This document shows, in pieces, positions 393 to 54,367 of a stretch of 64,000 nucleotides of DNA. Each line of letters starts with the position of its first letter. Position 1 is the first letter of the stretch. The notes below the pieces were generated by a model. The model was not told the DNA's origin and made no database searches. It saw only the letters and a program-made list of their open reading frames with translations. This DNA comes from Allacma fusca (taxonomy: Eukaryota > Arthropoda > Collembola > Symphypleona > Sminthuridae), in contig OX359250.1 in assembly GCA_947179485.1 (NCBI GenBank), positions 47,279,450-47,343,449 on the forward strand, given 5' to 3'. The translations under genes were made by a program, and so were the position numbers.

Positions 393-1244
393 TAGAGCTA
401 CTTTTGGGATCGGGATACACCCGGGAATTGGGTTCGGGATCGGGAACGGGTTCGAGTTCGGGTGTCTAATTAATGTTCCCAAATACTTTGGGACCAGGTT
501 CGAGAACATGCTCAGCAGACCCGGGATTTCGGGGTCGGGAACGGGTTTGGGAACGGGTTCAAGCTTGATAAAGGTATTTGTGTTCCCGTCGGGAACCGGG
601 AACATCTTCGTTCCCACACCCGTTACACGCTTCACGTTCCCGGGAACTACGCATCCATCTAGCGGAGAAAAAAATACAAAGCATGCACGGTTTCCCTCAT
701 TAAAGTGTTGAGATGAGATAATAACTTTACGTAAGCGACTTGAGCCGTTTCGCATATTGTCAGTTGGGATCGCATAGTAGTGATTTCCGCCCGCTCTGTA
801 AGATGAAAGTCATTGCAAAACTTATATTGGGAATCGTTTAAGCAGTCTTCCTGCAGCTTTTTCGGCAGCGCAGACCAGACGTTTAGTTTGATGGCCATTT
901 TTAATAGTGCTTAAATCTATTGTTGCATGGTACGCATGCATAATTATTACTAAATCAATAAAATGTAAAGAAAAAAATGATTTACACTAACTGCACTGGT
1001 CCCGGGAACGAGTCCGGGTTCAAGGGATTTGGGATCGGGATTGGGAGCAAATTCTATCTGATTTCGGGTTCGGGATCGGGTTTGAGATCAACGATTCAAG
1101 CAAATTTAATATCTGGGTTTTTGTGCACCCGATCCCAGTATTTCGGGAACGGGTTCGGGTGTGAGTCCGAAAATATTGATGACCCGATTTTCGGGATCGG
1201 GTTCGGGAATGGGATCAAACTTTTCGTTCCCACAAGTAGCTCTA
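393..1244. mobile_element. hAT-type MITE with GGGATCGGG word arrays
   Basis: The element is 852 bp. Its ends are inverted copies, TAGAGCTACTTTTGGGA at the left and the complement of TAGAGCTACTTGTGGGA at the right (16 of 17 match). It is flanked by a perfect 8-bp duplication ATGTACAT (385-392 and 1245-1252), which is itself a palindrome. A at position 2, G at position 5 and an 8-bp duplication are hAT hallmarks. Bases 400-650 and 1000-1230 are degenerate arrays of CGGGAACGGGTTCGGG/GGGATCGGG in the same orientation. The middle (660-1000) is non-repetitive AT-rich DNA. There is no transposase, so it is non-autonomous. Confidence 0.85.
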
Positions 1245-1505
1245 ATGTACATACATCCTCCATACAGGTCCCCCGAATATTGATTTTTTAGTTTACCAGT
1301 GTACACAAAAATGGGTTCAAAATTTAATAGAAAACATATCTCTGAACGCCTATCAGCAATATAACTACAAGTGCGTAGGGTATATGCACATTTTACAGGA
1401 TTCGGAAGTTTATTTTACGTTGATATATAACCCAAACCACAACCTGGAAAGGCATTTTTTAACACTTTTTCTCCAAAATGGCAAAGACATACAAAATTGT
1501 ATCAT

Positions 1506-1622
1506 AATTGTGACCAATATTGGTCAGTCTTAGGCAATGAGACCAATTGTGACCAATATTGGTCAGTCTAAGGCAATGAGACCAATTGTGGCCAATATTG
1601 ACCAATCTGAGGTCAGAAACCT
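1506..1622. repeat. 39-bp tandem repeat, about three copies
   Basis: Three imperfect 39-bp units, each holding the palindrome GACCAATATTGGTC followed by TTAGGCAATGAGACC. The third unit has drifted. No coding potential is evident, and 1253-1505 to its left is featureless. Confidence 0.8.
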
Positions 1623-1719
1623 AATTGGGACCAGTAATGGTCAACAAGGTAGCCAGAACCACGTATGATGAATGCATCCGTAAATGTGTCATTCATCGAA
1701 ATGGACTTTTGAAATTGAG

Positions 1720-1935
1720 AATTTAGGTTGGACAGGGGACCCTTTGCCCAAGAATTAGAATTTAAATCTTTAATCTCCCGCGCAAACGAGGGCGAGATGA
1801 CCCAAACTGTTGGTCTCCCTGGGACATTGGGCCAGGTACCTAAGCTCCCACAAAATTTCATTCCGATCCCGAGCGGGCATGGGGCGAGGGCTCCTTGTGA
1901 GGCGCGTGACCCCATGTCAATATTTTGACCTCTGC
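1720..1935. other. GC-rich islet of unknown nature
   Basis: A roughly 200-bp stretch clearly richer in G and C than its surroundings. A 152-codon open frame runs through it on the minus strand (1613-2071) and a shorter one on plus. The predicted peptides match no family I know and show no domain or signal. It could be an old transposon piece or a fragment of a foreign exon. Confidence 0.25.
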
Positions 1936-2071
1936 AGGTCACGGAAATTAAAATTTTGGTAAACGTAAAAGCAGTTTGTGGGCATATACACTCACTAAAA
2001 CCTAATCCGCCTTTCAAAGCAATCTGTTCAAAATTACGAGCTCGACATGTTATGCTCATATACTTGCTCAT

Positions 2072-3326: not shown

Positions 3327-6300
3327 TTAAGAAGTCTTAGAGGTTGGCTCATTGGAAGGGTTTGTGAAAGATGGAGATGCACCACTAGCACCTGCTGAGG
3401 TCACGATCACCGAACTGTATGACACGGGAATAGAGCCCAAAGTTTTCTCGTTGGCAGTTGAGAGGAAAGTTGGGAGAACTTCGATTCGTGCGTGTAATTG
3501 CTGGGATTGTCCTCCTACAACTCCTGAACGGGATGACTGTTCTGAAACATATTCAGCGGATGGTATTGACAACTTATGAGCTTCATTCGAAGAAACCCCT
3601 TGATTCTCATGCTCTGCTTTGAGAGCTGATACTCCGGACAGAATTGTTTCATCCAGGATGTCACTTCGCCTCAAAATTTGGAATTGCTGACCCGCAGAAG
3701 TCAAGTCCGATATATATAAGGCAGGTTGCTGACCCGTCTGACCTTCCGATGCTTCTGGTAAGCTGTAGTTTGGGATCCAAATTGTTCTCGATGTTGCAAA
3801 CTGACCATTATTGTAGCGGGGGTCCACCAGGTTTCCCACTGAATAATTTAATATACAGTTGCAATCACTTATTTCAACACATCGCCCATTACAATATCAA
3901 CTAAGGTGCTGTATTCAAGAGAATAGACACGCACTACTTCGGTAGCAGTCCGCATTTGTTACAATTAGAAGACGTAATTTGAATGGTGTGTAGAAAAATG
4001 AGGAAGTTATCAAATATTACTGTTTTTATGGTAAATGAATGAAATACTTTAAAAAATTTTACCTTCAGGGGAGAGCCTCTGAATGCCGTAGGTTATATCA
4101 ACGTTATGAGCGGCGGGATTACCTGGAGCGTCAGTTCCCGCTACGTGGGCATGCTCCAACGAGATAGGTCCTTCGAGAACGAGAGAAGAGGAGACGGGCT
4201 CGGTCAGAGCAATGGGTGACCCAGTGTGATGATGCTGTTGAACAATTGTTGTTGTTGGAGCTGAAATTGGGCCACTCGCTATGTTCGTATTGTCATAGTC
4301 ACCGGCCGGTTTCTCGTAAACAGTCACAGGTGGTCTCACACCCTATAGTTCAGTAATAATTATGTGATTAATTATAACTTTCTACCAGCGTATTCTGTCA
4401 CCTAAACTTTGTATTAAGCATTAAGTTCACAAGCTCAATGGATTAATCAAATTATTTTACTTTTTATTACTCTCTTGCTGGTTCTGTATATACCTGATAA
4501 ATAATGATGGGCGGTTTGTTCCACCCTTTTGGAGCAACAACGTAGTTGGACTTTCCTTTGTGGGAAGATTTGGAGTGAGAATGGGAATGTCCATGACTGC
4601 TATGGCCGGCATGGATGGATGCCTTTAATGAGGGGAGAGAAGAATGAAAAGAGCTAAATGCTGATTTCAGTGAATTGTGAATGGAGCTATGAAGACTGTG
4701 CAGACCGTGTTCCCCCTTGGAATGGTGACCCTTATGCCCATGATCTCCTTTTTGAGAGCCATGACCCTTGCTTGAACCCTTTGACGACGAACCGTAGGAT
4801 GATTTTGTCGATGATGATTTGGGAGCGGACATGTATATTGGGGGCTGTTGGAAGATGTGAATGGGCTGAAACAATTTAAAACATTAGCGTGACTGGTCCC
4901 AATAATTTCTAAAGGGTACTAATTAAGACTGGCCAGACTGACCACAAGAAGACTATGAATAAAGCATACCGGGTGACCAGTGTAGATTATATGGGGCAAG
5001 GAAGCAGCTTTCTTAGGAGGACCGTATGAATCCTTAGGTGGGCCATAAGATGATTTTGTGGGGATAGAGTCGACAGCTCCTTTAGATGAACCAGACTGGA
5101 AGGAACTTGTGGAATGGCCGTAGGAAATTTGAGAAGGGATTTCGTAGGAAGATTGAGAAGGGGCTCCGTAAGAAGCTTGAGAAGGGATTTCGTAGGAAGG
5201 TTGAGAAGGGACTCCGTAAGAAGATGAAGATTGAGAAGGGACTCCGTAAGAAGATGAAGATTGAGAAGGGGCTCCGTAAGAAGATGAAGATTGAGAAGGG
5301 ACTCCGTAAGAAGCTTGAGAAGGGACACCATAAGAAGCTTGAGGTTGGATTGGAGCATCCGGAACTCCGTAGTCAGTTGATTGTGAGAATGAGGATCCGC
5401 CTGTTACAACTTTTCCTTCCGGAATACCATAGTCCACAACTGGTCCTGTATATTACAATACTCCATTCATATTAATTCCCTTATTTATTTTCTAATTGAC
5501 TAATTGTTACGTTTATATACTAAAGGGATTAGATGCGATGTGTACAGCTAAGAATAGTAACCTGAAGGGACACCGTAATCTCCACCTGGAGGACCGTACG
5601 AAGCCTGAGGAGGTTCTTGGGATATTACATTTCCTGGTGGGCTAACAACATGGATTGGAGCTGCGTAATGCAAACAATTTACAATGTTGAAAAATCAGGG
5701 GTAATATTGTTTCATTGGGGGGGGGGGTAATATTATACCAACTTACGATTAATGTCAGATTGGTAAATGAGGATTGGTAACTCGTGATGCGGCAGAGGGA
5801 CATATTTGATGGAATGAGATTTTGATCCTTTGCCTTTTCCTCCTTTGCCGTGACCACTCCCCTGAGATTCATTGATCAAATTTTATAAATAATTGCTCTC
5901 ATTTTAATATAATATAATTTATTTGTTGGTTTAAAGGATTTGGAGAGTCCTTGGAAATACCTTTCTTGGCTTTGGTGGGGGTGGGAAGTGAATTACAGGG
6001 GGTTTCTCGTTAGTATAAACAATTGGACCCGCATACTTGACACCCTTTCCTGCTGGGGTAGCCAAGATTTCGCCGTGGCCATGTCCTCCAGCCCCATCAC
6101 TGAACCCTCCAACTCCACTCAGACCATCATCATATCCAGTATTGCTAGATGAAACGCTGTAACCAGACGAGAAGGACTGACCGCCACTGTAACCACTTAA
6201 TCCGCCTACATCACCCCCTCCGATTCCTCCACCACCAATCAAACCACCAGCCCCTCCAGGAACTCCGTAAGAGGCATCGGGTCCTGCACTTGAGTATGAT

Positions 6301-12609: not shown

Positions 12610-12874
12610 GTCCAGCCTTCGATGGCTAGCCTTCAATGAAGGCGGAAGATCAATTTTCCAGAGAGTTGGGAAGGGAAGGCTAAATTAATTCGGGAAGGCT
12701 GAATAAAGGCTTCCTAATATTTTCAGAAAAAGGTATGCGAAGGAAGGACTCCCGTAACGTAAAGTAGCCCTCTGCTATTTAAAAGGCTTCGCGCGTACAA
12801 TTAACGACAATAGATCGTCAGAAATAAAACAATGAGAGTGCAACTGAAAACACTGCAAATGCATAATGTACATA

Positions 12875-14302
12875 CACTGGGGTGCAATGCTGTTGGAACA
12901 ACGTAAACTGTGAGACTCAGGGTCTAAATAATCGTAGAGTTTAGTACTTATTTATAGTGCTTTTTCTTGCTTTTATTCAGTTTTTTAAGCTGATTGTAGA
13001 TCTGCAAAAAAAAATTGTAAAAAAAATTGTTATATGAAAAAACGAGCAAGTACGAAAAAGCATCCAATTATTTTGGATGCTTGGGTGAATTCGGGGGGTA
13101 TGTTGTCCCACCTCTCCTTAATTCGGGTTTTCGGGCGTTTGTACCCGGTAATGTGAAATTTCGTCAGCTCCCGACCTATGTGATAACACGTATGTGCGAT
13201 ACGGGTGATATCCGTACTTTGGGGGGTCCAGTCCAGAACTGGTATCTTGTTTTTTTAAATCGGCCCACGTGGACTTCGCCGTGTGCTGGGGGTCATTGCC
13301 CTGTTGATACACAAATCGGCGTCCAAGTCGCAGGTGTTGGGCTAATTGTTTAACGTTTCGGTTGAATATGGATTGGTAGTAGTGTTGGTTCATACTTCCT
13401 TCCATAAAATCAATGGTTCCCACCCAATATACACTGATGCAGACCCAAACCATAACACAACCACCACGATGTTTTACAGACAAGACACTAAATTTGCTCT
13501 CACCGGACCACAAAACGCGACTCCAAAACGTTACATACTTGCTTTTGTGTTTCCGGCACCACAGAGTCCTCTTTCTCCTGTTTTTAGCATTGATATAAGG
13601 CCCTTACTTGGCTCGAAGCAAGTTCCTTCCTCTCAGATACAGGATTCTTTTGATCGTGGTCCGATGGGCAATGATTTCTATCTCAAAATGCGCCTGTGAG
13701 AGGATCTTAGATGTGGTGAGTCTTGAGTGTATCTTGACCTTGCGGGGGTGACAATGCGGTCTTTACCCCTGCCGGGCAGGTTTTCGACGATAGTAGTCGT
13801 CTTGTATTTTTTTATAATAATAAAGACTGCCGAGGGTCTTAGGCGGACCTCTTTGGCAATCTGCCTAAACGTTGGAGGCTTTTTCTCGTCATTCCTCCAC
13901 TTCTCGATCACTTACTCTCTCGCCGGTATAGGAATCTCCTTTCTTCGTGGCTCCATCTTAACCTAAACGTGTCAAAATGCATCAAGGAATTCTAGAAGAC
14001 ACTAAAGTGTGTTTGTGATTCATTTTGTTTAAAATAAAATTACGTGCCTTCAGTTATCCGGCTCAGATTGTACCGTAGTCAGTCGTGTTCCAACATTAAT
14101 GCACACGAATAATTGGATGCTTTTTTGTACTTGCTCGTTTTTTCATATAACAATTTTTTTCCCCATTTTTTTTGCAGATCTACAATCAGCATAAAAAACA
14201 ATAAAAGCAAGAAAAAGCACTATAGATTAGTACTAAACTCCAAGATTATTTAGACCCTGAATCTCAGAGCTTACGTTGTTCCAACAGCATTGCACACCAG
14301 TG
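12875..14302 (-). mobile_element. Tc1-type transposon with long (~200 bp) inverted repeats
   Basis: A 1428-bp element beginning CACTGGGGTGCAATGC and ending with GCATTGCACACCAGTG, flanked by TA on both sides (12873-12874, 14303-14304). The inverted repeats extend about 200 bp (12875-13080 against 14110-14302), an IR/DR-like layout known from Tc1-family elements. It encodes a degenerate transposase on minus. It sits inside the GGAAGGCT element, and the paralogous sequence near 54795 lacks it and preserves the empty TA site. Confidence 0.92.
13118..13956 (-). pseudogene. Tc1-family transposase, inactivated
   Basis: Translation starts at an ATG at 13956 and meets a TAA after 14 codons. It continues in frame through a helix-turn-helix region (residues like RQIAKEVRLRPSAV and the linker motif GRGKDR), then loses frame near 13680. 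A second block (13513-13118) has the DDE/D core: WSGESKFSV, where the expected first Asp after WS is Gly, then GGCVMVW, then QQGNDPQHTAKS with the second catalytic Asp kept. The third acidic-residue region (LDPPKYG) is scrambled. At least one stop, one frameshift and a catalytic substitution mean it is dead. Confidence 0.9.
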
Positions 14303-14659
14303 TATAGTTATATGCACGATAAGAACCGTAACCTCTTTTTGATTACTCATGGAATTTATGTTTCGGACGAACTTGAGTAGTTTGTTTAATAAAAAATACC
14401 TGGGAATCATGCAATTTTGAATAGTATTGCTGATTTTAAGGTGATTGACCTGCAAACGGGTGGTTCAAATGTATTGCTATGGTATTTCGCGTTATGAAGG
14501 CTGATTGTTTTTGAAGGCTGGAGGCTTTAAATTAATAAGCGAAATAAGGTTGAGGGAAGGCATTATATTTTAAAGGCTTCATTTAAAAGAAGGAATGCGA
14601 ATTTTCAAAAAATTACCTTCAAAGGTTTGAAGGAAGGCTATTTCGTTTGGACATCTCTG

Positions 14660-23148: not shown

Positions 23149-23356
23149 CTGGAAAATGCGTTGTTTAATATGGACCACATGGCAAAATATGTTCAGCATG
23201 TTTAATTCCTGCTGCTACCTGTCCCCTGTTTTAAGAAGTAACCCACGGCCAGCAAAGTTTTAATGCTGCTGTAGCTTTGAATGTTCAATGGGAAAATAGT
23301 CTATGTCACCCAATGGTCATCGATAACAACGATATTTCCGCCAAAATGAGAGCTAA

Positions 23357-24834: not shown

Positions 24835-24837
24835 TAA

Positions 24838-25952
24838 GACATATTATAAGGTTAATTTAAAACGTTATCTTATAAGAAGTGTTATCTGCATCGAGGTACA
24901 ACACAAATTCATGCATTAAAGGTGAAACAATTTTACTTCACGCTAGTTAGGAGGAAGTTTTGGAAAACATTCTTTATCACATTAAATTTCAGAAACGCCT
25001 TAAATTGTTCTTTTTTAAAAGTCTTTGAAAACAAAGCAAAATGTTGTTTGTATTGCCACAGGAACACATAATAAAATAAAATACGAATTTACACATTACT
25101 AAAAATTACAGTTGGGAGCAGGACCTCACCCTGACATAGTTGTAAGACTCCTATTATTCCAAAAACATGTATAAGTTAGATTAGGTTAGAATTGAAAAAA
25201 AAAATCGCCAACTATAATCAGGAATAATGAAGTTTCACTTTTGACTTCCCACATACGAACTAACAAAATTGCTGTCCCCAATCCCTGTCCCAATTGAGCA
25301 AATGTTTCTATCAACTACCGTTAACAGAGGCAGAGGTAGAACCCACCTCATAACCGATACAATTATTTTCGCGTAAAGTTATTGAAAGAACATGAACCAA
25401 CTCCACTAAAATTGACAAAGTATTTCGAAAAATGAATGTTCATAATTGAAAAAATGATTTTTATGAATACAGAATAAATTTTTTAATTGAATTTTGATTA
25501 AATTTGAATTTTATGAAAAAATAAATTTTCGTGAATACCATTTTTTTTAATTGACAAAAAATACCTCTGGTTCCGTGAACAACAATAATTACTTTTAAGA
25601 ATCAAAAAAGGCTTGTCAAGTAAGGCAAAACAATTGACAAAACAAGGCGGCAGCTTTCTTACAAACGGCTGCAAATCATTCCCAGTGATTTACAAAACTA
25701 TTTCGAAATCGGAGACAAATTGTTCGAATTTACAGGACTGCTAAATTATTCGGTCTCAAATAGGAGTAATTCCAATGTAACTTCTGAAGTAGATACTAGT
25801 CCGATTTCCACAAAATCATTTCCAACTGAATAAAATTGTCGACCTGTGGTCGCACAAATCGATTCACCTCATGATTTCCCTCTCTATTAAAAATACACGC
25901 ACTTTGAAAATTCTCTGCCTCAAGTGGGGAAATTCCATATTTGCTAAATAAC
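24838..25952. other. No recognised feature
   Basis: AT-rich DNA without recognisable exon or element ends. I searched it by eye for the missing first two exons of the desaturase pseudogene and did not find them. Confidence 0.35.
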
Positions 25953-29778: not shown

Positions 29779-30779
29779 CATAGATGGACATTTTCTTTCG
29801 CACTCGCACTCCACTCGCACTCAATACAAATTGAGTGAACTGCACTCATACTCACACTGATATGTTAAAAATGGTCAAGCCTGCACTCACACTCGTCCTC
29901 ATGTGGACAGAAGACTATAGTCTTATTATATAGAGATATATATATATAGATATAGATATATATCTTATTATATATTATTATATAGAATTTGATCCTCGCA
30001 CTCGCACTCATGAGGGCATTTGATACATACATGTGATGCATACCTGACTTATCCATTTGAAATACATTCAAATGATTTTGTTCCGTGTTTATTTTTACAT
30101 GTAATTTTATTATGTTAATACGCAAATAAACTATATGTATCACTTTCAAAATGCTTTTTCAAGTTGGAATATTTTTACGAACAGAAAATGATCAGTTTGA
30201 AATTATTAACACACATGAGTAAATAACAAATGCTTGCAATGCCTACGAAGACCATAAAGGCTAAATGCTGCAAATGGTTATTTATATTGGTTCAGAAAAT
30301 CACGGTAACACAAAATATTTTCAATTGCAGACCATTTAAACCTTGATCGTTTTTATGTAAAGAAAGTCTCCATGGTTTTAAAAATAGTTTTTCACTTTTT
30401 TCTTTACATTGATCTCACTCATTTTGGAAATCATAAGATTGACACAAGATTATTATGACTGAAATATTAATGGATGCAATTCGCAATGATACTCACTGAA
30501 CGATTTTGTTTCGTTTTTTGCGTAATTGTACAAGCCTAAAAATAAATTACATTTTTGCACTAGAGTGCAGAGTACTGCATTTTTTAAAAAACGAGTATGT
30601 TTTTGTGTTCTCGTCCTCGCACTCATTAATAAACATATCTGTGGTATGTACTCGCACTCATGATTCTGAGTGCACGGTTGTAATAACATGTACTCGTCCT
30701 CAAAGTAAACTCGTGAGTACAATGAGTGCGAGGTGAGTGCGAGTGCTGCACTCTGTCCTCATGAGGATGTGCATCTATG
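29779..30779. mobile_element. MITE with GCACTCGCACTC word arrays
   Basis: 1001 bp, ending in inverted CATAGATGGACAT (left) and complement CATAGATGCACAT (right). Words CACTCGCACTC fill 29800-29900, 29995-30020 and 30600-30770. A (TATAGA)n run lies near 29930-29980. The same CATAGATG terminus occurs in the element at 41136-41975, which has an 8-bp duplication. Here no flanking duplication is visible (ATCAGAGG against GTTCCAAT), so the site has decayed or the ends recombined. Confidence 0.7.
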
Positions 30780-31549
30780 GTTCCAATATAAATTACGAAT
30801 CAAGAGAATCGTTTTGAAACCATCCCTAATTTTGGAGATTTGTGATTCAATACGTTGTGTGCGGATTTGCCGCATGAGAGCTTCGAGGAATATATATCGA
30901 AATAAAAATGGTATTGATCAGGTTTTTTTCACAAATTTAACATCGCGCTATGCAAGAATTTATCACAAAATTAATATTTTCCAGTATAGGTAATGATAGC
31001 AAAATTATTATCGTCGAGTATAGAAAACGTTAACAACATTAAAATTTTGTAATAATTACAATTAATTTTTGCAAGAAGTGGAAAACCAGTTTTTCTCGAC
31101 TCCATCCTATTTCACTCAATGTTAATTTTTGAACTCCTTTCTATTCCTCACATTGTTAATTTTCTGACGACTTCTCTTCTTGCTGTTCTTTGTCACGACA
31201 AAAATACTCTGCAATGGAAGTTATAACCTCAAAAGTGAGAACAAATTCACATGACATTTTATGGCGTGCTCAATGAAATTGTTATCTCGAAACCTCCTCC
31301 TCCTCCCTCCCTCATATTTGTTCAAACTTGTTGGGATTTTTCGAGTTTTCAGAACACGCAAAACCTCATTTCTTGAAAGTACAGATACCAGTACAGACGA
31401 CCAGTGGATGCGGATTTTTAAACTTTATATTTATTCAAAAAATTCAGGAAATGACAGTGTTCTTTTTCTTTAGAAAAATCTGAATTTCCTATAGTCGAGA
31501 TTTTGGAGCCATATTCATATTCAATAATTATACTAAATTCTCGCCACTT
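30780..31549. other. No recognised gene; scattered TTAATTTT motifs
   Basis: Near 30958-31160 several TTATCACAAAATTAAT and ATGTTAATTTT motifs resemble, partly in inverted orientation, the 34-bp repeat at 25953. This could mean both belong to one large old element, but termini were not found. Confidence 0.3.
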
Positions 31550-37003: not shown

Positions 37004-37471
37004 CAGAGCTATGCAGTATTTTCAAGTACAGTATTTTAAAATACGTATTTTCAGACCACGAAGTATTTTGTATTTTAAAGTTAGCAAGCAGTGGGCAAGT
37101 ATTTTGTACTGAGTATTTGAAGGGCCTGTAAGTACAAAAGTATTTTGTATTTGAGTCTGTTTTTTGAAAGCGGCCACCGTGAAAATCACTATTTTTTGAA
37201 ACACTTTTAGAGGTGCCCAACGGATGCACAATAAGATGAAAAAAATTCCAAGAAATTTTTTTCCTCTAAATCTCAATAGGAAGGTCAAAAACCCGAAAAA
37301 TACTCTAATTTATTACAGCCTTACCAATTTGAATATTCAAAAACGGGCTATCTCGAATATGTTGCACAACTAACTCCTACACTCATGATTTTTTTCCGCA
37401 TCGTAGCATCAAAATTTCGATTTTTTTTGAAAAATCACATGGACATTTTTGAAATTTCGGATTTTTTTTTT

Positions 37472-37580
37472 ACTGCCGGCAGACGCAAAAAAACGCTTTT
37501 TTAAAACTCTAAACTCAAGAAAAGCATAATAATAGTAGTGCAAAATTTTGAAAAAGCGTTTTTTTGCGTCTGCCGGCAGT
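37472..37580. repeat. Perfect 30-bp inverted repeat
   Basis: Bases 37472-37501 (ACTGCCGGCAGACGC then an A-rich and CGC part) are the exact inverted complement of 37551-37580, with a 49-base loop. A transcript would form a strong hairpin. It lies directly upstream of the Cys-rich exon candidate. Confidence 0.92.
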
Positions 37581-37628
37581 CAAAACGGGGAAAATCCGAA
37601 GCGGGTAATTTATATACATATCTGCTTA

Positions 37629-37802
37629 AGGCGTCGTGCACATAATTGCGTCCCCAAATATGACTGTAACCCTGCGCAATCTCAATGGATTTATGTACAA
37701 ATAAATCAGTATGACCCATGCGGTGAACAATGGTGTTACAAAGGTCAATGTCAGCCCCCACTAAAATGGGTGGGGTACAACCATGTAATGTGTACCCCCT
37801 GA
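37629..37802 (+). CDS. Candidate terminal exon of a Cys-rich secreted peptide
   Basis: An open frame on plus ending at a stop at 37800-37802, with a poly(A) signal AATAAA at 37830-37835, 28 bases later. The C-terminal 50 residues hold six cysteines spaced C-x5-C-x17-C-x4-C-x4-C-x13-C, with local motifs CVPKYDC and CGEQWCYKGQC. An even number of cysteines plus a nearby poly(A) signal suggests a disulfide-rich extracellular domain. No signal-peptide exon was found upstream, and the start given is a possible acceptor (CTTAAG). It sits between repeat blocks, so it may be the orphan 3' exon of a broken gene. No family assigned. Confidence 0.4.
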   Translation, partial: RRRAHNCVPKYDCNPAQSQWIYVQINQYDPCGEQWCYKGQCQPPLKWVGYNHVMCTP

Positions 37803-37994
37803 ATTTTGTAAAGCAACAAATAATTTTGTAATAAAACAGCGAGGAAAAAATAAGCCGCTAACCGACAGCCTACTACAATAGATGAGAGTGGCAGGCGGCA
37901 TGCTCGTCTAGATCCATAGCGCATGGATTGTATACGTATACATACAGCCAGCATTGCTTGCTGTAGTAGACGAGGAGAGGAGGTTCCTCCCTAC

Positions 37995-38932
37995 CAGAGG
38001 TATGGAATATTTTGAAATATTGTATTTGAAATAGTATTTGAAATACATTTAGTATTTCGTATTTGGTATTTTTCTAGCCGTAAATTGTTTCAGGTATTTT
38101 GTATTTCGTATTTTGTCAGCACCGACATGTCTACTGTATTTTATATTTCGTATTTTGTAGATTACAAAATTTATAGTATTTTGTATTTATTTATCTTCTC
38201 AAATTTACTCAGTCAGTATTCCAAATACAAAATATAGTTTTAAAATACATGACTCTGGCAATTGTTAAGGTCGTCTCTAAAACATGCTCAAATAAATATT
38301 TTAAATGTAAAAGCACTAATTTAAAACATTTTTAAACCAGTTTTCGAAACCTGTTGAATGGATTTGAAGAAATTACTGTAAAAATACATAAAATTCAATG
38401 TATCTGAGAACTATAAAGCTAGCTAAATTAGTGACGCGAATATAAATACATTACCCAGGAGTTATAAGATTATTTGTTTAAAGGAAAAATATTCTGTACC
38501 TACGGCCATGTTAATTTACTTTGATACACACAAATGCACAACTCTAAAGTCTAATAACATGCAATTACCTTTATTAAGTTGATTTATTTTTTAATATCGT
38601 ATTATTTGGCCGAATTATACAAAATACTTTGATAGAATATACTTTGGATACACATCAGATATGTAATTACTTTGAGATAAATATGAGAGTATTTTCAGTA
38701 TGTATTTCGTATTTCAAATACGGTATTTTTATTTCATATTTTGTCTTTTTGTTGGAAGGAAAGTATTTTATTTTGTATCTTGCCCAAATGACTCTGGATA
38801 TTTGTATTTTATATTGTATCTTAACTAAGTTACACCTGGTATTTGTAGTTTATATTTGTATTTTAACTGTTCTGAAAATGTATTTGTATTTTGTATTTCA
38901 ATAATAAATTTCATGTATTTTCCACACCTCTG
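37995..38932. mobile_element. hAT-type MITE with GTATTTTG words
   Basis: 938 bp between ends CAGAGGTATGGAATATT and complement CAGAGGTGTGGAAAATA, flanked by a perfect 8-bp duplication CTCCCTAC (37987-37994, 38933-38940). Subterminal zones (38000-38240, 38680-38925) are GTATTTTG/GTATTTCG arrays and the centre is ordinary AT-rich DNA. The flanks (CCAGCATTGCTTGCTG near 37945, CACTCTTTGG near 38990) look like an older GCACTGCACAG-family repeat, so this is a nested insertion. Confidence 0.9.
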
Positions 38933-40205
38933 CTCCCTACGTAATACACGGACAGCGCCTTCCATGTAAATAGAAGGCCACATCACGCTCCACTCTTTGG
39001 TGCCGTGCCGCAGCTCAAATAGTCCCATTTTATTTTCTTAATAATTTCGGATTGGTTAGCTACAGCCCTTTCATATTTGGACTCAATATCATACACATTA
39101 TTGAAAATGTGTGTATGTACTTTATAAGTACATAGCTAAAAAAAATGTTTCACTATGGGAATGGCCGTCTTCAAAAAAACAGACTCATTTGCTTACTTTC
39201 AAGGGCCTGGAAAATGTATTTCAAATAAAGTATTTGGCTCAAAATACTTTTCACCAGCATCATTACTAACTTTTACGTTGTTTGTAGTTTGAAAGATGCT
39301 CAATATCTGTAAGAACTCCATTTTAGCCATGCAATAACATACGGCGGAATGAATCATTTTTACTAGACACATCAAACATGTTCAGGTTCTCGATATTCAG
39401 TATTACATATCGTCTCTGAATAGGCAAAATAGATTACGCTCGTATCCGTTTGTACATCACTTACATTTAGTCCAATATTAACAACAATATTTAAGATCCG
39501 CCGAGGACACAATTTAATTTTCAAATACTAACTCGGATACTAAAAATATCATAATAATCTACATTACTTAATAAACAACCAAAATAGCTGATTTTCTTTA
39601 GTCCAGGTAATTATAACTTATGGACTGACCAATTCAATAAAAGTTGAATCATTTGTTGCTACACAAGTTTTATATGCAGTCCTTGAAGTGATTACTTGAT
39701 TAGTTATGTAATTGTTTTAATAAAATGTTGCCTTTCAAAGCTGATTGAGTCCTGAACTGAAAATGGTGATCATTATTTGGGTATTTTAAGAAACGTATTG
39801 TATTTAAAATACAGTATTTTGTATTTGAGTATTTTAAATTACCAACCATGTATTGTATTTTTATTTGTATTTTAGTAATGTAACCTGAGGTATTTTACTT
39901 TGTATTTTCTATATTTTACTTCAGGTATTTTATTTTGTGTTTTGTCACCTCAGACCAAGTATTTTGCATAGCTCTTGTTATTTCACAAATTTACTCTGAA
40001 CCACAATGTGCATAGCACGTCCATTAGTTCCCTATCTGTATGTACTGATGATTACAAAACATTTGAATGAAAGTGGGGATGACCTCCAGTGTTTCAAAAT
40101 GTTTTTTGAGACCTCAAATAATTTTTATTTTCAGTACCTCAACAACTGGCCATGTATTTTGTATTTAGTATTTTAAAAGACTGAAAATGTAAAACTATTT
40201 TGTAT

Positions 40206-40966: not shown

Positions 40967-42110
40967 CGAGCACTGCACAGCCAGCATTTGCTGGCTCAGA
41001 AAAGCAGATGTAAATAGGGAAGGCAGTAAGTAAGTAAGTAGTTCAATGCAATAGCTAGCTGCGCATAGCTATGGTCGTCTATACAGAGAGAGCGCGCGAA
41101 TATTTGATTCTTACCATCACCTTTACTATCACTATCATAGATGTAGGTTTTTTCCCACTCGCACTCACACTCGCACTCCCATAGAGAAAAAATCCACCAC
41201 TCCTACTCTTGCACACTCGTAGTCTTACTGAGAATGTAAAACTCCTACTCTCAGCACTAACTTCAAATCTCACAACTACTCACCACTCGTGAGTCATAGA
41301 TGTAGGTTTTTTCCCACTCGCGCTCACAATCGCATTTCCATAAAGAAAAATCCACCACTCCTACTCGTGCCCAGTGTCTGAGAATGTAAAACTCCTACTC
41401 CTACTCTCAGCGCTAACTTCAAATCTCACCACTCCTACTCACCACTCGTGAGTTACTCAATGTTTTCATCGAAATATTAAGACAAGTTTTCCTTATCATT
41501 AGAAAAGCGAATATTGAGCAAAAAATCGTTCTATATAATTTTAAAGTCAAACTCAATGGCAAATCACGACCGACGAAGCTTACAATAATTGCAACAGCGC
41601 CTGGAACCTAGAAGCATGTTCAAGATTTCGTTTTAATCTGTGACATATTTTGTCTTCCAATGCATGACTTGTACATACATAAGTCGGCATTCCATACGAT
41701 TGTTTGTAGGAAATTATGAAATATTTGGCAATAACCGCCAATCTTTTAATCGTGGCAGTGCTAGCTTTATGCGGTTAATACAATGGTAAGAGAAATAGTG
41801 AGTGGCAAAGCATGCTACTACTACTCCTACTCTTTTTCTATGCTTTTATTTATACCACTCCACCTCACCAAGTTTTTGGCGCCTTCACTCGTACTCTTTA
41901 CCTTGCTACTCTCCTGTGAGTGTGAGTAGGAGTGTGTTGAGTGCACTCGTCACTCGTGAGTAGCCCCCATGTATGATCACTATCCACTCCTTCAAATTAG
42001 AAGAGAGGATAGATATGTGCAGCTAGCTATTGCATTGAACTACTTACTTACTGCCTTCCCTATTTACATCTGCTTTTCTGAGCCAGCAAATGCTGGCTGT
42101 GCAGTGCTCG
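40967..42110. mobile_element. Foldback TA-target element, GCACTGCACAGCCAGCA family
   Basis: TA flanks both ends (40965-40966, 42111-42112). The ends are near-identical inverted repeats about 95 bp long (40967-41061 against 42016-42110), starting CGAGCACTGCACAGCC and containing the palindrome CCAGCATTTGCTGG. They differ mainly by one AGTA slippage unit. Its centre has been split by the 840-bp element at 41136-41975. Without it the original element was about 300 bp, nearly all foldback. Tc1/mariner-type integration is inferred from the TA target. Confidence 0.85.
41136..41975. mobile_element. hAT-type MITE with CACTCCTACTC words
   Basis: Perfect 8-bp duplication ATCACTAT (41128-41135, 41976-41983). 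Ends CATAGATGTAGG and complement CATACATGGGGG (9 of 12). Words CACTCGCACTC, CACTCCTACTC and CACTCGTGAGT occupy most of 41150-41460 and 41820-41960. The left 160 bp, terminus included, is tandemly duplicated (41133-41290 and 41293-41450). Nested in the foldback element. Confidence 0.88.
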
Positions 42111-42438: not shown

Positions 42439-43885
42439 TCAGTGTAGGGTTTCTGTTCGGGACGGGATCGGGACAGTTTCGGGGCAACATTTTTGTCTCC
42501 ATGTTATTTCGGGAATGAATCGGGACGAACGTTTTTGTCCAAAAGATTTCGGGACGTAACGGAACAGTAGATCGGGAGAGAAAAAAGTACCTGTACAGTA
42601 TACAATTGCTGTAAAAATGAACATGTATGGGAATTAGAGCTTCCTTCGGGTTTCCGAAATCCCGAAGTTCCGTGTTCGGAAACGGAACGGAACAATTTCG
42701 GAACATTCTTTTTGTTCCGTCATTGAATCGGGACAAAACCGGAACATGAGCACTTGTACCGATAATATTGGGACCGGGACGGTTCAGAGCATCGGTACGA
42801 AAAATGTCCCATATAATTTACGTCATCGGAAAGCGGAATCGTTCTGTTCCGTTCCGAACCGATCCCGGTACAATTTCTGAAGTGTCGCGCCATCCTTCAA
42901 CTAGAATGGAAACACATTTCTTATCGCACTGGCTTGTAAGCAGTTTTTGCCAAAATAACGAAATTGGATGAACAAAGATTTAATTTACGCAAATGCTTAT
43001 ATGTAATGCGAGTATCGTTTTCCATGAAAATCAACAGAATAACTAATTTTGTTTAATAAACAAGGGCATGGGCGATTTTTCTCGAAATGAAAATTCTGAA
43101 ATCGAAATTATTAGCAGCAATGAAGCAAGCTTGCAGGAAATTAACACTGTTAGGCCATTGAAATCCACACGCTAGAAATATTTATTGCTAAAAAATAATT
43201 AATAATAATTATATAATACTGCACAGTAGTTCTTTTTATATGGCCTAATTATTATTAAATAGTATTTTATATAATTAAATAATAGCAATCCCTAGCATTC
43301 AATCTATTAAAAGTATATCATGTATATTAAGTTGCCAGTAATTTGTATACGCATTTCACGTATATGTTGTGAACAATTCCGGGATATTTCGGAACGGAAC
43401 GGGTTCGGAACGGAAAAACTGGCATAATACGGAACGGAACACAACCTGTAACGGAAAAAATACTTTACTCCTTTGTTCCGAACGGTGTCAGTTCAAATGT
43501 TCCGATGTCCCGACAGCCGGAACGGAACCGGGACCAATATTATTTGTAGGTTTCGGAACGGAACGGAATTTCCTACGGAACAAAAATGTTGAACACATTG
43601 GAAGCTGTAATGGGAATCGCTGCGTTTAAAATGTGTTTTTCGTTGTTATGTGAATACTTTTAAAAGTAAACATGCGCTATTATTGGAGGTATTCTTATGG
43701 AAATAGTGGAATTTGGATCATTTCTTTTAAGACTGGGATTATAATCTAGGTGACCCGAGGTTTTCGGAACGGGACCGGGATCGGGACAGTTTCGGGACCA
43801 AAGTTTTGTCCCCATGTTATTTCGGACTGAATCGGAACGAAATTATTTGACCCGAGGATTGTGGGACGGGACCGTAGCACCATAT
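42439..43885. repeat. CGGGACGGGA/GGAACGGAAC word-array region
   Basis: Arrays at 42450-42880, 43378-43575 and 43745-43870. The first and last share a long homologous stretch in direct orientation, including TTTTGTC.CCATGTTATTTCGG. Candidate hAT-like ends CAGTGTAGGG (42439) and complement CACTATATGG (about 43893) are weakly alike and lack a matching duplication, so one element or two cannot be decided. Confidence 0.5.
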
Positions 43886-46500: not shown

Positions 46501-46503
46501 ATC

Positions 46504-46785: not shown

Positions 46786-46911
46786 CAGTCAACTCTCGCT
46801 ATAAAGGATGCTCAAGGTATCGGCAATATACATTGTTTAAATGTGAATCGGGACTGCAAATCCGAATCCCTTATTAGGGTATCCCTTATAGTGGGAGTCC
46901 ACCAGAGCTGC
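46786..46911. mobile_element. Short pogo/Tigger-like element, right end lost
   Basis: After TA: CAGTCAACTCTCGCTATAAA. The right side reads CCCTTATAGTGGGAGTCCAC, the expected inverted terminus cut short where a CTTGAA-word array begins. This indicates that the array element inserted into or recombined at the terminus. Confidence 0.65.
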
Positions 46912-47165
46912 GTTCAAGTCAAGTTATTTGAGACAACGTGACTTGAACTTGACTTGAACTTGAAAAAATTGTCTAAGCGAGGTATCCGCACTTGTACTTG
47001 ATGAATCAAGTTTCTCAAGCAACTTGAGTATTCAAGTACTCGATTTTCAAGTTCATTTTATTGAACTTGAATTTGATCATAGTTTGACGTTCAAGTTGGG
47101 CACATAACTTGACTTGAACGTGAACTTGTACTTGAACTTGATTATTCAAGTAATTTTTTCGTAAA
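46912..47165. repeat. CTTGAACTTGACTTGAA word array
   Basis: Begins CAGAGCTGCGTTCAAG, a hAT-like start, then dense CAAGTT/AACTTG words to about 47150 in both orientations. A right terminus was not recognised. 47166-47469 holds nothing else apart from a TACTTGATCAAGTA palindrome near 47291. Confidence 0.5.
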
Positions 47166-49571: not shown

Positions 49572-49574
49572 GTA

Positions 49575-50149: not shown

Positions 50150-51021
50150 CAGGGATGGATACCGTTATTCATAGCGTTTTGAATAACTTTATTATCTGAA
50201 AAAAAGAGAAAACGGTTTACAGTAAAGAAAACGAAACGGAATATATGCGATAACTTTCAACTAAATCTAACCCATAGGTTGAATGTGCAAAACCAAAAAC
50301 GTAAACCAGAACCAAAAATATAAACGTTATTTTCCGTTTTTACAAATCCCATGCATTGCCATATGTAAGCTCCAGAAAAGTATAAGCCTGATCTCAAATG
50401 AGACACGTAAACCGCTTCTATTTCGTTTCACTTCAACTAATTCTTTCAACGCGTGCTCTCCTGATGACATATATAGAAATGCATAGAAACTGCAGAAAGT
50501 CATTCCTTAGCCATTTACATTAGGTAATTATTTACACATCAGAAAGTAACGGTCATCATTGTTAGTGTTCATTTGATGAAACAAACAAAACCAAATAGCG
50601 AAAGCAATGGAACGAAAAAAGACGAGCGCAGTGTCCGATTTTTTCCAATACAATCTTTGAGTAGACAATAAATTACCGGTGTTTAGTAGAAGGCTGTAAT
50701 TCAATAACACGGGTGAGCTTTGCACCACATTTTACTACAATTTCAGTTGTTGTCAATTGTGATTTAAAAAATGAGCCACTATTCTATCATTGTGTGCTGT
50801 ATAATAATATTAAAAATTTTTAATGATTGCAAAAATTGAGGATAAAGAATTCTTATAACCGTTTTTAACCGTTTAACTGTATGTCATGGAAGCAAGAATG
50901 CCTTAAGTTTTTATCAATAACCGTTTCTCCAGATATCGTAAACTATAACGTTAGCGTAAATAATTCTGGCAGAAACGTTAAGGTATTAACCAAAACTATA
51001 TTTTTCGGTTTTCCATCTCTG
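50150..51021. mobile_element. hAT-type MITE with ACCGTTTT words
   Basis: 872 bp. Ends CAGGGATGGATACCG and complement CAGAGATGGAAAACCG. Flanks TTGGGTAC and GGGGTTAC match at 5 of 8, consistent with a decayed 8-bp duplication. Words AACCGTTT/AAACGGT/AAACGTTA occur at 50160-50340 and 50850-50990. The middle is non-repetitive, with an open frame on minus (50528-50728) of no recognised type. Confidence 0.7.
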
Positions 51022-51029
51022 GGGGTTAC

Positions 51030-51529: not shown

Positions 51530-51711
51530 GTGTAACATAAAATAACGAGGGCGAGGGAGAGTGGTGTATTTTAAAATTAACATCTACGAGGGTGAGGACG
51601 AGGACAATTCGTAACGTGTCGCTCGATTGATGACGAGGGAGAGTACGAGTATAGGCTTTATTGCATCTCTCGTTCTACAAAGCAGAGGGAGAGAAAAATA
51701 CCCATCTATGA
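51530..51711. repeat. CGAGGGAGAG word array with CATAGATGG end
   Basis: Words ACGAGGG(A/C)GAG run to CCCATCTATG at about 51702-51711, whose complement CATAGATGGG is the terminus type of the elements at 29779 and 41136. Only the right end is present. Confidence 0.5.
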
Positions 51712-51741
51712 TTCCACCAAAACTTACAATTAGCCATACAC

Positions 51742-52692
51742 CAAAGGTGTCCGCCTATCCTACATATAGGCCTATTTGTAGGCTATTCATAGGGTGCAAG
51801 GATTTTACTGAATATGCTTATAGGCAAAATAGGGTGCAAGAGTTTACGCTAAAAGCCTAGCCTACAAAATAGGTAGGCTCAGCCGTCGTGAAATTACATG
51901 CATATATGTATAAGCTACTGAAGCACATAATTTTCAATTAATGGCATATGGGACGGGTAACAAAAAAATTAAAGAATAATCTGCCAGCTGTGCAGATTGT
52001 ATGTTTTCTGGTGTGTACCCAGAGTGAAAATTTTGTTCCACTTCGCCTTGATATTCGCTGAAACCTCACCGAAATTAAGTTCGAAATATTCAATAAAGTA
52101 GAAAAGCTGTGAATATTTACGTTTGAACAAAATTCGAATTTCAAACAGGATTTCCTACGAGATATGTTGTCAGTCAGCTAATACCTTTCCGTTGTCGCAA
52201 TTGAGTTGTTTTGCTCACATTGGAAAATGTTTCTTGTGATATTTAATTTGTGAAATCTCAAGTGCAGCATCCCTTTTCAACAGAGTTATAAAACTTCGGC
52301 ACGTTTTCCAGCACAAACCAAGCCGAGATCGACAAACTGTTTTGATCTTAGAAACTTTGGCCAAGGTAGATAAACTCAAACTATTTTATTCCAATCCCGT
52401 TGACTTGAGGCAGGGGTTTTAATTAGAAAACCACAGAATGCCCTCAAATAACCTGTCGCTAACGAAAAGTATATAACATGTAGGAAGAGTAAAATACATT
52501 AAGCTTATTTTTCGATAAAATGTAGGCTTATATGTAGGCCTGGTATAGTGGTGGTCCTATATTCCCCATATAGGAAGGATATAGGATAGGCTGATCTATT
52601 CGGCAGTTTAAATGTAGGCATATATGTAGGCTCGGTCCCAATATTAAATATAGGAAGGATATAGGGTAGGCTGAGTCATTTGGACACCTTTG
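51742..52692. mobile_element. hAT-type MITE with TATGTAGGC words
   Basis: 951 bp with perfect 11-bp inverted ends CAAAGGTGTCC and a perfect 8-bp duplication CCATACAC (51734-51741, 52693-52700). Words TAGGCCTA, TGTAGGC and ATATAGGA fill 51750-51890 and 52520-52680, where an 85-bp unit is duplicated. The middle is non-repetitive. A relative lies at 47950-48680. Confidence 0.92.
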
Positions 52693-52857
52693 CCATACAC
52701 CTTTTGTCATCCTGTTCGTTTATTATCGCACAAATAAAAATAATAATAAATAATTGCACACATTTTCATTAACTACAAACATTTACATCAATCTCAATCT
52801 AATATTGATTAAATTTAAAATTGCTTACGAATACCGCTAGAAACTCCTCAATTACAC

Positions 52858-54367
52858 AGTCATATAAAAATAAATATCTCAAATCGGTACAGCTGCGTTT
52901 TGTAAATGCGTGCTCCAATGTTCAGCCGAATACCGGAACATTTGTGGCGGTCGTGGCCACGGTGCCCAGATTATTCGAATCTCAAATCAGGACTTCTAAG
53001 TGAGTTTAAAAAAATCAAAAACTAAAGGTATTTCAAACAATTTAACTTTGTATTTTGCTGGCATGTGATAAAAACTATTTCATTCTGGTTTAAAAATTTT
53101 CAATGACAAGCAAAGTAAACCTCATTTTTCCGGATCTTCAGAAATATCTGGCAAAGTATCTGAATGCATGTGAAAAAATTGTTTGTTGAGTCTAAATATA
53201 TAAAAATTAACGTTCCTGAGATATTATATCGTTTATCCTTGAGTAAAAATGGAGCTATACAATTTTGAATTATAGCTACAACTTTGGTTTTTCCAAAAGT
53301 TAATGAAACCTATTTTATAATTTGTAAATGTTTGTCTCACAAAACTAGAATGACAATCCGAACTTTAGAAACATTGGTGATGTTTTACTCCTTGATACAT
53401 TTGTCAGCTGTAGTTTTATTATCACTGTTTTTTAAATGCGTGAAGTATTTGTTTTACTCATGCACTTAGTTTGTTTTATGATTTTCTGTCAAAGTATGAT
53501 TTTTAAAATCGGTCAGGCCACCATTTGTAAAACTTGCATAAAATCTATAGTTGTGGGATCCAAAATATTTGTCTTCTTTGCTGCTACACTTAATAAAATA
53601 ACATTACAAACATTTTTACCGATCTTTCCTTGATTTTAAGTTCAAAAATATAATTCTGGCCCATACATTTTAATAAAAATCCACCATTTACTAACTCTCC
53701 AATTAATTTTAATTTCTTTTATGCGATTGGAAAACACGCGTAGTTTCCTAAAGCGTATTTTTTAAGTATATCTGCGGAAACCGTTAGTTTTCGATTCAGT
53801 TCAATTCAATTTAAAATTTGACCAACTGAATTGGTTTTTACTGAGCTGAATTGTACCATTTCCACCACTACATGTACCTGTGAGACATCATAAATTGGTA
53901 ATTGTAAGTAAAGACTACAAAACTGTTCCGTACAACAGCAGCGTCGATCATGATGAAATTAAGCCGATCAAAATTAAACAATTAAAACCATTTTACATAT
54001 TGGGCACATTTAGGCTCATGTGTATATTGTTAATGTTAGTATTATGATGGACGTTATGATCAGTAATTGCAACGTTTCTTCACTTTACCTCAAAGTGCTA
54101 CAAAGTCATATTTTTGGTAGCTACTTTGAAATCAGGACTAAATTCAAGCTCATCAGGTCATCAGGTGACCCTACGTCAAATCAGGACAGACCTGATCAAA
54201 TCAGGACTTCTGGGCACCCTGGTCGTGGCTGCTGTGGAAGTTCTGATGTGCTTGATTTATTTTTCGTCTGAAGATCAAGTCGATTTTCCAAACCTGGATG
54301 GATCTGATTGGTCTTTTTATTCAAGACTTCACAAATTCCATTCCTGGTATTTTCCTTTCCATTCGTA
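52858..54367 (+). pseudogene. Unidentified exon split by a hAT-type MITE
   Basis: Left part: after a possible acceptor GGTACAG (ending 52890), a frame reads LRFVNACSNVQPNTGTFVAV up to the insertion at 52958. Right part: from 54222 the frame continues as VEVLMCLIYFSSEDQVDFPN and on to a stop at 54365-54367. With one copy of the target duplication the two parts are in the same frame, about 70 codons, with a hydrophobic stretch at the junction that would suit a membrane segment. Family not recognised. Either the exon is destroyed or the insertion is removed as part of an intron. Confidence 0.5.
52958..54221. mobile_element. hAT-type MITE with AAATCAGGACTTCT words
   Basis: 1264 bp. Ends CACGGTGCCCAGA and complement CAGGGTGCCCAGA, flanked by a perfect 8-bp duplication GTCGTGGC (52950-52957, 54222-54229). 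Words AAATCAGGAC/GACCTGATC lie near both ends (52970-53000, 54125-54210). The long middle is plain AT-rich DNA. Confidence 0.92.

Follow-up and report, generated by a model that had tools for sequence, protein, structure and literature searches.

The window analysed here, a stretch of 64,000 nucleotides of the Allacma fusca genome, contains short elements whose ends are filled with repeats of a short word that differs from one element to the next. The question raised by this locus is the nature of these word arrays, which could be parts of the transposition apparatus of hAT elements, passive repeats or the outcome of a particular route of MITE evolution. The evidence presented below favors, with a probability of about 0.85, the reading that these elements are non-autonomous hATs and that their arrays are transposase-bound subterminal zones, specific to each family and inherited from full-length elements.

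Complete elements and their mobility

The eight complete elements proposed in the initial annotation were all confirmed at their coordinates (Table 1). Seven of them are flanked by perfect 8-bp target-site duplications (TSDs) and the eighth (50150-51021) by a decayed one, the same numbers as those proposed. Their sequences are indeed unrelated by blastn, with the exception of a single 21-bp match (E 0.006). The A2/G5 signature attributed to all ends is present in 15 of the 16, the exception being 41136-41975, with CATAC at its right end.

Table 1. Elements of the window with their TSDs, ends and subterminal words. Word counts refer to the best 7-mer in the two arms.
Feature	Positions	Strand	TSD	Ends	Word (commonest spacing)	Words in arms (null mean)
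hAT MITE F393	393..1244	.	ATGTACAT	TAGAGCTACTT	CGGGATC/GGGWWC (6 bp)	25 (8.8)
GAAGGC-word hAT-like element (left border approximate)	12610..14659	.		right end GGACATCTCTG	GAAGGC	
hAT MITE F18456	18456..19150	.	GTGTTGAA	TAGTGCATCGCATGGGTTC	ACCTGA/GGACCTG (6 bp)	24 (7.7)
GCACTC-word element	29779..30779	.		CATAGATG at both ends	GCACTC	
hAT MITE F37995	37995..38932	.	CTCCCTAC	CAGAGGTRTGG	GTATTT (7 bp)	35 (12.9)
hAT MITE F41136	41136..41975	.	ATCACTAT	CATAGATG/CATACATG	CCCACTC/ACTCNC (6 bp)	18 (6.8)
Ninth complete element	42635..43609	.	ATGGGAAT	TAGAGCTTCC/TACAGCTTCC	CGGAAC	
Left part of CAAGTC/ACTTGA-word element	46903..47160	.		starts CAGAGCTG	CAAGTC/ACTTGA	
hAT MITE F48171	48171..48599	.	CGCCCTCA	TAATGTTAGGGAAATCCC	CAATCCC (6 bp)	16 (6.8)
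hAT MITE F50150	50150..51021	.	decayed, TTGGGTAC/GGGGTTAC	CAGRGATGG	AACCGTTT	13 (10.8; null maximum 13)
hAT MITE F51742	51742..52692	.	CCATACAC	CAAAGGTGTCC	ATATAGG/TAGGCT	18 (9.8)
hAT MITE F52958	52958..54221	.	GTCGTGGC	CASGGTGCCCAG		11 (10.0; null maximum 12)
Second GAAGGC-word copy, without Tc1-like insertion (left border approximate)	54550..55316	.			GAAGGC	

The window was also scanned for elements of up to 1.6 kb with a perfect 8-bp duplication and with YA..G ends that match at 8 or more of 10 bases, limits outside which 41136 and 50150 fall. Seven elements were returned, namely six of the known eight and a ninth at 42635-43609, whereas 17 of 20 shuffled sequences gave none and three gave one. 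The ninth element, absent from the list of the initial annotation, is nested in another array-bearing stretch (about 42460-43880).

These elements display the usual traits of MITEs: they are short, non-coding, homogeneous in length and present in many copies, about 40 or more each for F393, F18456, F37995 and F48171. Besides the window copies, 39 full-length or near full-length genomic matches were found for F393 (92-96% identity), 39 full-length ones for F18456 (99-100%) and 39 main ones for F37995 (87-95%, a few partial). The 18-bp end of F48171 occurs 114 times per strand (control 0), and of the first 100 ends listed, 43 form closed pairs, 38 of which measure 416-431 bp; the longest listed pair (1,862 bp) revealed no transposase, its middle 1 kb containing no stop-free frame above 105 aa. 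A Pfam search with six reading frames of the window gave no match. Divergence and variability are greater in F52958 and F50150.

The genomic copies demonstrate that the elements are mobile by insertion with an 8-bp duplication. In the five families read, perfect TSDs flank 51 of 62 copies, three of the 62 being window copies; a general lack of such duplications would have spoken against the initial annotation. With the window copy counted, they are found in 24 of 30 copies of F393, where three others have 6 bp instead of 8, in 8 of 8 copies of F18456 and in 4 of 4 end-complete copies of F52958, which are those of 30 fetched loci whose match reaches both ends. Among other copies, F48171 has 10 of 10 and F51742 5 of 10, with two more at 7/8. 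Adding two more window elements yields 53 perfect TSDs, 52 of them distinct. In these 52, the second base is T and the seventh is A in 56% of cases each (58/104 versus an expected 0.32, binomial p 5e-7), the full nTnnnnAn pattern being present in 14 and nnnTAnnn in 8. The target preference of Ac-type hATs is nTnnnnAn. The 8-bp TSDs differing by copy and the short terminal inverted repeats with A2/G5 place these elements in the hAT superfamily.

The same observations bear on the idea that unrelated transposon ends simply adjoin arrays that are satellites or simple repeats in their own right. Ordinary tandem repeats do exist in the window (25953-26232 and 5118-5343), but tip and array recur together as whole units with their own TSDs. 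A misassignment of satellites is excluded in the five families read (F393, F18456, F48171, F51742 and F52958) because 51 of the 62 copies have perfect, almost all different TSDs. As a general explanation of the arrays, it is extremely improbable.

Word arrays at the ends

The arrays were evaluated by counting the best 7-mer, with at most one mismatch, in two 250-bp arms (214 bp in 48171) against 15 shuffles, a test that took the place of an earlier count of the top exact 6-mers per arm. Long arrays had been attributed to all eight elements; six exceed the shuffles, whereas 50150 and 52958 are not above the null (Table 1), the sole cluster of the latter being a short one of AAATCAGGAC at the right end. 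The idea that words have the same orientation at both ends also stands in part. It is clear in 393 (11/2 and 10/2 in the two arms), 18456, 37995 and 48171, is a leaning only in 51742 (5/2 and 7/4) and fails in 41136 (12/0 and 2/4). About 15 different words were counted by hand in this one genome, some of which, for instance GGGAAC/CGGAAC or ACTCNC/GCACTC/CGCTCA, could be forms of a single word.

A scan of the window for 6-mer clusters (threshold 6, Markov null maximum 5) detected 28 clusters, of which 18 lie outside the eight elements. About ten further arrays had been announced. Two of the 18 clusters overlap the ninth element, and three or more belong to other repeats (1351-1750, 5051-5450 and 25851-26300). 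Several array-bearing stretches can be related to the 3' flanks of hAT domains described in the next section. The GAAGGC-word element at 12610-14659 is split by a Tc1/mariner-like element (12872-14305), and its right end aligns with one such flank (L097). The stretch at 46903-47160, where ACTTGA occurs 17 times within one 250-bp window, resembles by eye the right end (CAGCTCTG) and the words of flank L088. The element at 29779-30779, for which no matching TSD was found, is similar by eye to the right end of flanks L092/L098. The region 23370-24821 was considered as a hAT and rejected; its perfect 8-bp flanks belong to longer inverted ends.

Signs of array growth through tandem duplication of an end were observed in two families. 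In the window copy of F41136, the left end is present twice (41136 and 41295; 159-bp unit, 2.0 copies), and this duplication is private, since the 43 other match rows all start at query base 152 or later. Beside one copy of F37995, end segments of 103 bp are repeated, and segments of 100-134 bp beside another. These duplications, together with the word spacing of 6-7 bp, are in line with a passive origin, in which slippage and tandem duplication would fill MITE ends with microsatellite-like sequence and the words would have no role. Such an origin is nevertheless unlikely. The mid sections of 393 (1 in 352 bp), 18456 (0 in 195) and 51742 (0 in 451) contain hardly any words, even if these are not absent from those of 37995 (10 in 438) and 41136 (5 in 340), 48171 being practically devoid of a mid section; similar arrays are found behind hAT transposase domains; and word bases are retained longer than the other bases as sequences diverge. 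Indeed, between two diverged CGGATA ends, 79 of 88 word bases (90%) are identical versus 91 of 153 other bases (59%), or 66/75 versus 104/166 with the words marked on the other sequence, an excess that may be inflated by the aligner and that none of 225 circular shifts equals. The two GAAGGC copies of the window show no word conservation (29/33 versus 102/117). Signs of end duplication exist, yet nothing shows that MITE families arise in this way.

Arrays behind hAT transposase domains

The initial annotation suggested comparing the words with the hATs of the same genome. This comparison revealed arrays behind hAT domains and a full-length relative for F50150 only. In the genome, 150 matches to the hAT dimerisation domain PF05699 were scored out of 860 candidates; none was found in 14 control genomes. 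According to the 6-mer measure, arrays are present in 19 of 39 3' flanks of these domains, above all 60 shuffles, and in 7 of 30 control flanks (bases 1-700 of L009-L038), a modest contrast (Fisher p 0.045) for flanks that were hand-picked from the 150 matches with a preference for long open frames, high scores and multi-copy sets, and that are not independent, several being copies of one family (four CGGATA among the 19). At least three of the 19 (L086, L088 and L093) cross an array seemingly belonging to a neighbouring element, and the other 20 flanks have no array by this measure. Arrays are common in this genome, which accounts for the positive control flanks.

The right ends of four hAT families were located by the point where copies stop matching. 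Exact 6-mers per 250 bp reach 13-15 for CGGATA, 12 for CGAGTA and 10 for AGTAAG in the hAT flanks; the MITE clusters caught by the 6-mer scan in the six clear elements contain 7-15. The notion of hugely expanded arrays peculiar to MITEs is therefore not supported, given these flanks (19/39 versus 7/30) and counts of the same order as those published for Hermes.

One full-length element, L089, deserves a closer description. This 3,018-bp element contains hAT transposase frames (PF05699, E 2.6e-12), has a TSD matching by eye at 7/8 and resembles both ends of MITE 50150, whose bases 1-702, 700-742 and 708-872 match the ends of L089 at 82.7, 97.7 and 83.0%. As to an N-terminal BED zinc finger or Hermes DNA-binding domain, its score for PF10683 (18.8 bits) is below the cut-off of 20.5, and the 47-aa piece of the first exon that was scanned has no Pfam match; by eye, a split C..C / H..H pattern can be seen. 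From these alignments, MITE 50150 probably arose from a full-length hAT by internal deletion. A relative with a hAT domain and the same ends was found for one of the eight MITE families, F50150, represented by L089 and, by coordinates, two further copies; the Ds-type arrangement, in which both ends correspond to one full-length element and the middle is missing, was likewise observed for 50150 alone. A PF05699 match lies 1,990-1,991 bp away from 3 of 40 F50150 places, two of which, 16 kb apart and with identical scores, may represent one duplicated segment. For the seven other families (39-42 listed places each), the 150 matches scored from the 860 candidates include no PF05699 match less than 5 kb away from a listed place.

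These results also bear on the proposal of a new, lineage-specific route of MITE evolution, in which subterminal zones would expand once a MITE is separated from its full-length parent. The extra left end private to one 41136 copy fits this proposal, as do the strong arrays of F18456, F393 and F48171, for which no full-length relative was found. It is nonetheless not supported, and quite unlikely: arrays beside hAT domains equal those of MITEs in density, the arms of L089 contain more words than those of MITE 50150 (20 versus 13, the best words being different), and 50150 resembles a deletion derivative.

Proposed role of the words

What stands of the initial annotation is that several independent non-autonomous families of hAT type exist, each with subterminal words of its own. 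The specificity of these words, the similar arrays behind hAT domains, the full-length relative of 50150 and the conservation of words between diverged ends suggest that the words are probably transposase sites. The arrays would be the zone in which many copies of the family's own transposase bind, through their N-terminal BED zinc finger and the DNA-binding domain next to it, and the catalytic core would act on the short YANNG tip. With one word per hAT family, each MITE family would depend on the transposase reading that word, which would presumably decide which transposase mobilises it. The arrays of MITEs would be inherited from full-length elements through internal deletion, as is strongly indicated for 50150 and presumed for the others, and they would lengthen or shorten as segments of an end are duplicated in tandem.

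A more tentative extension of this reading is that each of the hAT families sharing similar tips (CAGNGRTG and relatives) has changed over to a dense word of its own, 5-7 bp long, BED finger and word co-evolving as a private address by which a family is shielded from the transposases of the others. If so, the pairs of transposase and word in this genome would amount to a code, open to reading, for recognition by BED fingers, and the turnover of words would be a driver of hAT diversification. More simply, provided that the arrays are transposase sites, looking at the ends of a hAT family is enough to propose its likely binding word. Since one assembly offers 150 scored hAT domains and about 15 words, the sequence of a BED finger could be linked computationally to a DNA word, and whether words keep MITE families apart could be tested in the same genome. 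This diversity of words is a useful natural data set in which BED-finger recognition is testable.

Comparison with known hAT systems

In maize Ac, the last 200 bp at each end contain repeats of a hexamer to which the transposase binds cooperatively (PMC3260210). The Allacma elements share with the Ac/Ds system, as described there, the 8-bp TSD, the short tips, the repeated words, and the existence of internal-deletion and shorter non-autonomous relatives. They differ by the presence of about 15 words by hand count, several in a near-tandem 6-bp phase, whereas that account of Ac deals with one word (AAACGG) in one family. The ends of Hermes are asymmetric and contain 17 and 14 subterminal motifs, read by BED domains (PMC10368747); the 16-35 words in the two arms of the six clear elements are of the same order. 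From that description, most Hermes words near the tips appear to share one strand at the two ends, a trait also seen in four of the present families. The Hermes motif (AAGY) differs in being only 4 bp long, and partly expected by chance, and in not being in tandem phase. Mutation of the subterminal repeats of Tol2 lowers excision (cited in PMC10368747), and a common subterminal motif of Herves is bound by its transposase (PMC3143072). Subterminal repeats bound by transposase are published for Ac, Hermes, Herves and Tol2, but the motifs differ, and Tol2 and Herves are reported there as single families.

A parallel for a diversity of words comes from the hAT-derived CGG-binding proteins, in which hAT BED and Hermes-type domains recognise a variety of motifs; four hAT-encoded proteins were tested, and for each of them the motif matches the subterminal regions of its own element (PMC8097297). 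As summarized there, that work concerns measured proteins from many genomes, whereas the present one concerns DNA words alone in one genome. The titles and abstract openings of the open-licence papers listed contain no account of a single genome in which many hAT families have different word arrays, which is weak evidence of absence. The elements described here represent a known hAT architecture in new families; what is unusual is the number of different words within one genome.

Elements of the window and their copies

The assembly searched comprises 393 Mb in 91 contigs, with the window at C9:47279450-47343449. The inverted ends attributed to the eight hAT MITEs are present in all of them, the 8-bp duplications are perfect in seven and decayed in 50150-51021, and the eight are indeed mutually dissimilar save for one 21-bp match. 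A strict scan of the window recovered six of the eight and a ninth element (42635-43609), the shuffle control giving one match in 3 of 20 shuffles and zero in 17. Window reading frames resemble cuticle proteins and a desaturase, which we take to be suggestive of an arthropod.

Families are named F followed by the start of the window element. Rough first-look candidate counts ranged from 165 (F48171) up to 1,275 (F18456), and the 40 best candidates per family were scored. This gave at least 39 additional full-length matches for F18456 (99-100% identity), at least 39 additional matches for F393 (92-96%), at least 39 other main matches for F37995 (87-95%), and at least 44 match rows for F48171, window copy counted, with full length in 43. 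Copies diverge more in F41136, F50150, F51742 and F52958. The 18-bp end of F48171 occurs 114 times per strand (control, 0); among the first 100 ends listed, 43 form pairs that close an element, with a length of 416-431 bp in 38 cases and of exactly 429 bp in 24.

The 8-bp target site duplication (TSD) is perfect in every copy read of F18456 (8/8), F48171 (10/10) and F52958 (4/4); it held in part for F393 (24 of 30 copies) and F51742 (5 of 10). The six deviating F393 copies comprise three with a perfect 6-bp repeat (see table), one matching at 7/8, one at 5/8 and one whose match starts inside the end, while the five imperfect F51742 duplications match at 7, 7, 6, 6 and 3 of 8 bases. T is preferred at position 2 and A at position 7 (53 perfect TSDs, 52 distinct, including two extra from the window).

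Features of the window and of other loci (L, locus; C, contig) in the assembly
Feature	Position or locus	Ends or words	Observation
AGAATAG right tip	L070, L091, L095	CCCATCACTG	6-mer repetition reached by 0, 0, 1 of 60 shuffles
CGGATA right tip	L081, L082, L096	GAACCTTA	0/60 shuffles
CGCTCA right tip	L092, L098	GCATCTATG	1 and 0 of 60 shuffles
AACCGT right tip	L087	CCAGGTCTG	Words by eye; 7/60 shuffles
Further tip	L102/L104	GAGCACTG; GAGTAAGT words	By eye
L089 element	C1:55871290-55875290 locus, minus strand	CAGGGATGG...CCATCGCTG	3,018 bp
F393 copies	L013, L016, L035		Perfect 6-bp instead of 8-bp duplication (3/30 copies)
Nested F18456 element	L005, C8:26459234-26459928	TSD GTTTGGGT	Inside another F18456 copy, whose bases 241-248 are this TSD; the TSD recurs at F393 copy L032
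F48171 copy pairs	C5:34155881/34156387, C12:50263470/50263981, C10:7423916/7424414		Three pairs, with about 70-85 bp between the end of one copy and the start of its partner
Stretch enclosing MITE 37995	window about 37004-39977	GTATTT arrays	About 3 kb, with an array at either end
Non-hAT element	window about 23353-24838	TGTGCACATATTACGTTTCATTTTT	Long inverted ends
Tc1/mariner-like element	window 12872-14305		Within a GAAGGC element; inverted arms 89-94% complementary
34-bp tandem repeat	window 25953-26292	TTAATTTTGTGATAAATTCCTATACAGAACAATG	
Inverted stretch	window 30886-31054		About 70% similar to the 34-bp repeat, 4.7 kb off
LINE-like frames	window 60749-62900		Fragmented

Among the other repeats, the element at about 23353-24838 was rejected as a hAT: its perfect 8-bp flanks belong to its inverted ends. 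The frame 13118-13603 (minus) resembles Tc1/mariner and gave zero Pfam matches. The LINE-like frames resemble a LINE reverse transcriptase; 60749-61213, the sole one scanned, gave zero Pfam matches.

Word arrays in the MITEs

Long arrays of a short family-specific word had been ascribed to all eight elements; six stand far above shuffles and two do not (best 7-mer, one mismatch allowed). The commonest spacing is 6 bp in four families and 7 bp in 37995. The same orientation of words in both arms was found in 393, 18456, 37995 and 48171, appears as a leaning in 51742, and is seen neither in 41136 nor in the L089 element, which is full-length. The first 158 bases of 41136 form a second left end. 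All of the other 43 match rows start at base 152 or later, so the end of the window copy has probably been duplicated in tandem. One 37995 copy has its terminal 103 bp repeated twice more alongside, and another has repeated end pieces. The stretch enclosing MITE 37995 may be an older element that uses the same word but ends in different tips (CAGAGCTATGC); inspection by eye showed no TSD around it.

A full-length relative and arrays near hAT transposase domains

MITE 50150 has a full-length relative in the L089 element, with whose two ends it aligns in blocks 1-702 (82.7%), 700-742 (97.7%) and 708-872 (83.0%). This element is flanked by GTGCGTAG and ATGCGTAG (by eye), and its two stop-to-stop frames, 143 and 493 aa long, give a sub-threshold Hermes DNA-binding match and a hAT dimerisation domain (PF05699). 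By coordinates, L089 and two more F50150 copies have the domain at a distance of 1,990-1,991 bp from the match to the left part; two of these three score identically and are separated by 16 kb, and may represent a single duplicated segment. In a genome search with the PF05699 profile, 150 matches were scored among 860 candidates, each of them exceeding the curated cut-off. For the other seven families, zero of these matches came within 5 kb of a listed place.

When 39 flanks 3' of PF05699 domains were set against 30 ordinary flanks, 6-mer repetition exceeded all 60 shuffles in 19/39 versus 7/30 (Fisher p 0.045). This contrast is modest because arrays occur at many places in the genome. Nor can the 19 be counted as independent, since they include four CGGATA copies, and the L086, L088 and L093 flanks seem to run through a neighbouring element's array. 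The anatomy of the ends is more telling. In four hAT families, with two or three copies each, the sequence extends to the tip where copies cease matching (see table). The window GAAGGC elements (12610-14659 and 54550-55316) can be aligned with hAT flank L097; by eye, the CAAGTC element (46903-47160) is similar to L088, and the CATAGATG element to L092/L098.

Words are better kept than their surroundings between diverged CGGATA right ends. For L096 versus L108, 79/88 word bases are kept against 91/153 others with the mask taken from L096, and 66/75 against 104/166 with that from L108; 0/225 circular shifts of the mask give as large a difference, and without the last 45 columns the values are 67/76 and 64/120. 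The same direction is seen for L097 versus the window GAAGGC end (50/60 and 63/112), L097 versus L073 (46/60 and 74/134) and AACCGT ends (29/30 and 111/136). The two window GAAGGC copies show no word conservation (29/33 and 102/117). Alignment bias may lie behind the conservation, above all in the gapped GAAGGC pairs.

Comparison with known hAT systems

The initial annotation regarded these arrays as a novel route of MITE evolution, a view that the published accounts do not sustain. In Ac, the terminal 200 bp contain a hexamer in many copies, to which transposase binds cooperatively (PMC3260210). In Hermes, BED domains read 17 and 14 AAGY motifs; according to the authors of that study, most hAT transposons have tip-proximal repeats of this kind (PMC10368747). 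A common subterminal motif is described for Herves (PMC3143072) and a repeated hexamer for the Kat1 element (PMC4763223); hAT-derived proteins bind a variety of motifs, and for four proteins encoded by hAT elements the motif matches subterminal regions of the protein's own element (PMC8097297). The BuT2 MITEs of Drosophila are regarded as internal-deletion derivatives (PMC3942097). The anatomy of the ends and the origin of the MITEs thus already have published precedents. More striking is how many different words, roughly 15 when counted by hand, occur together in a single genome.
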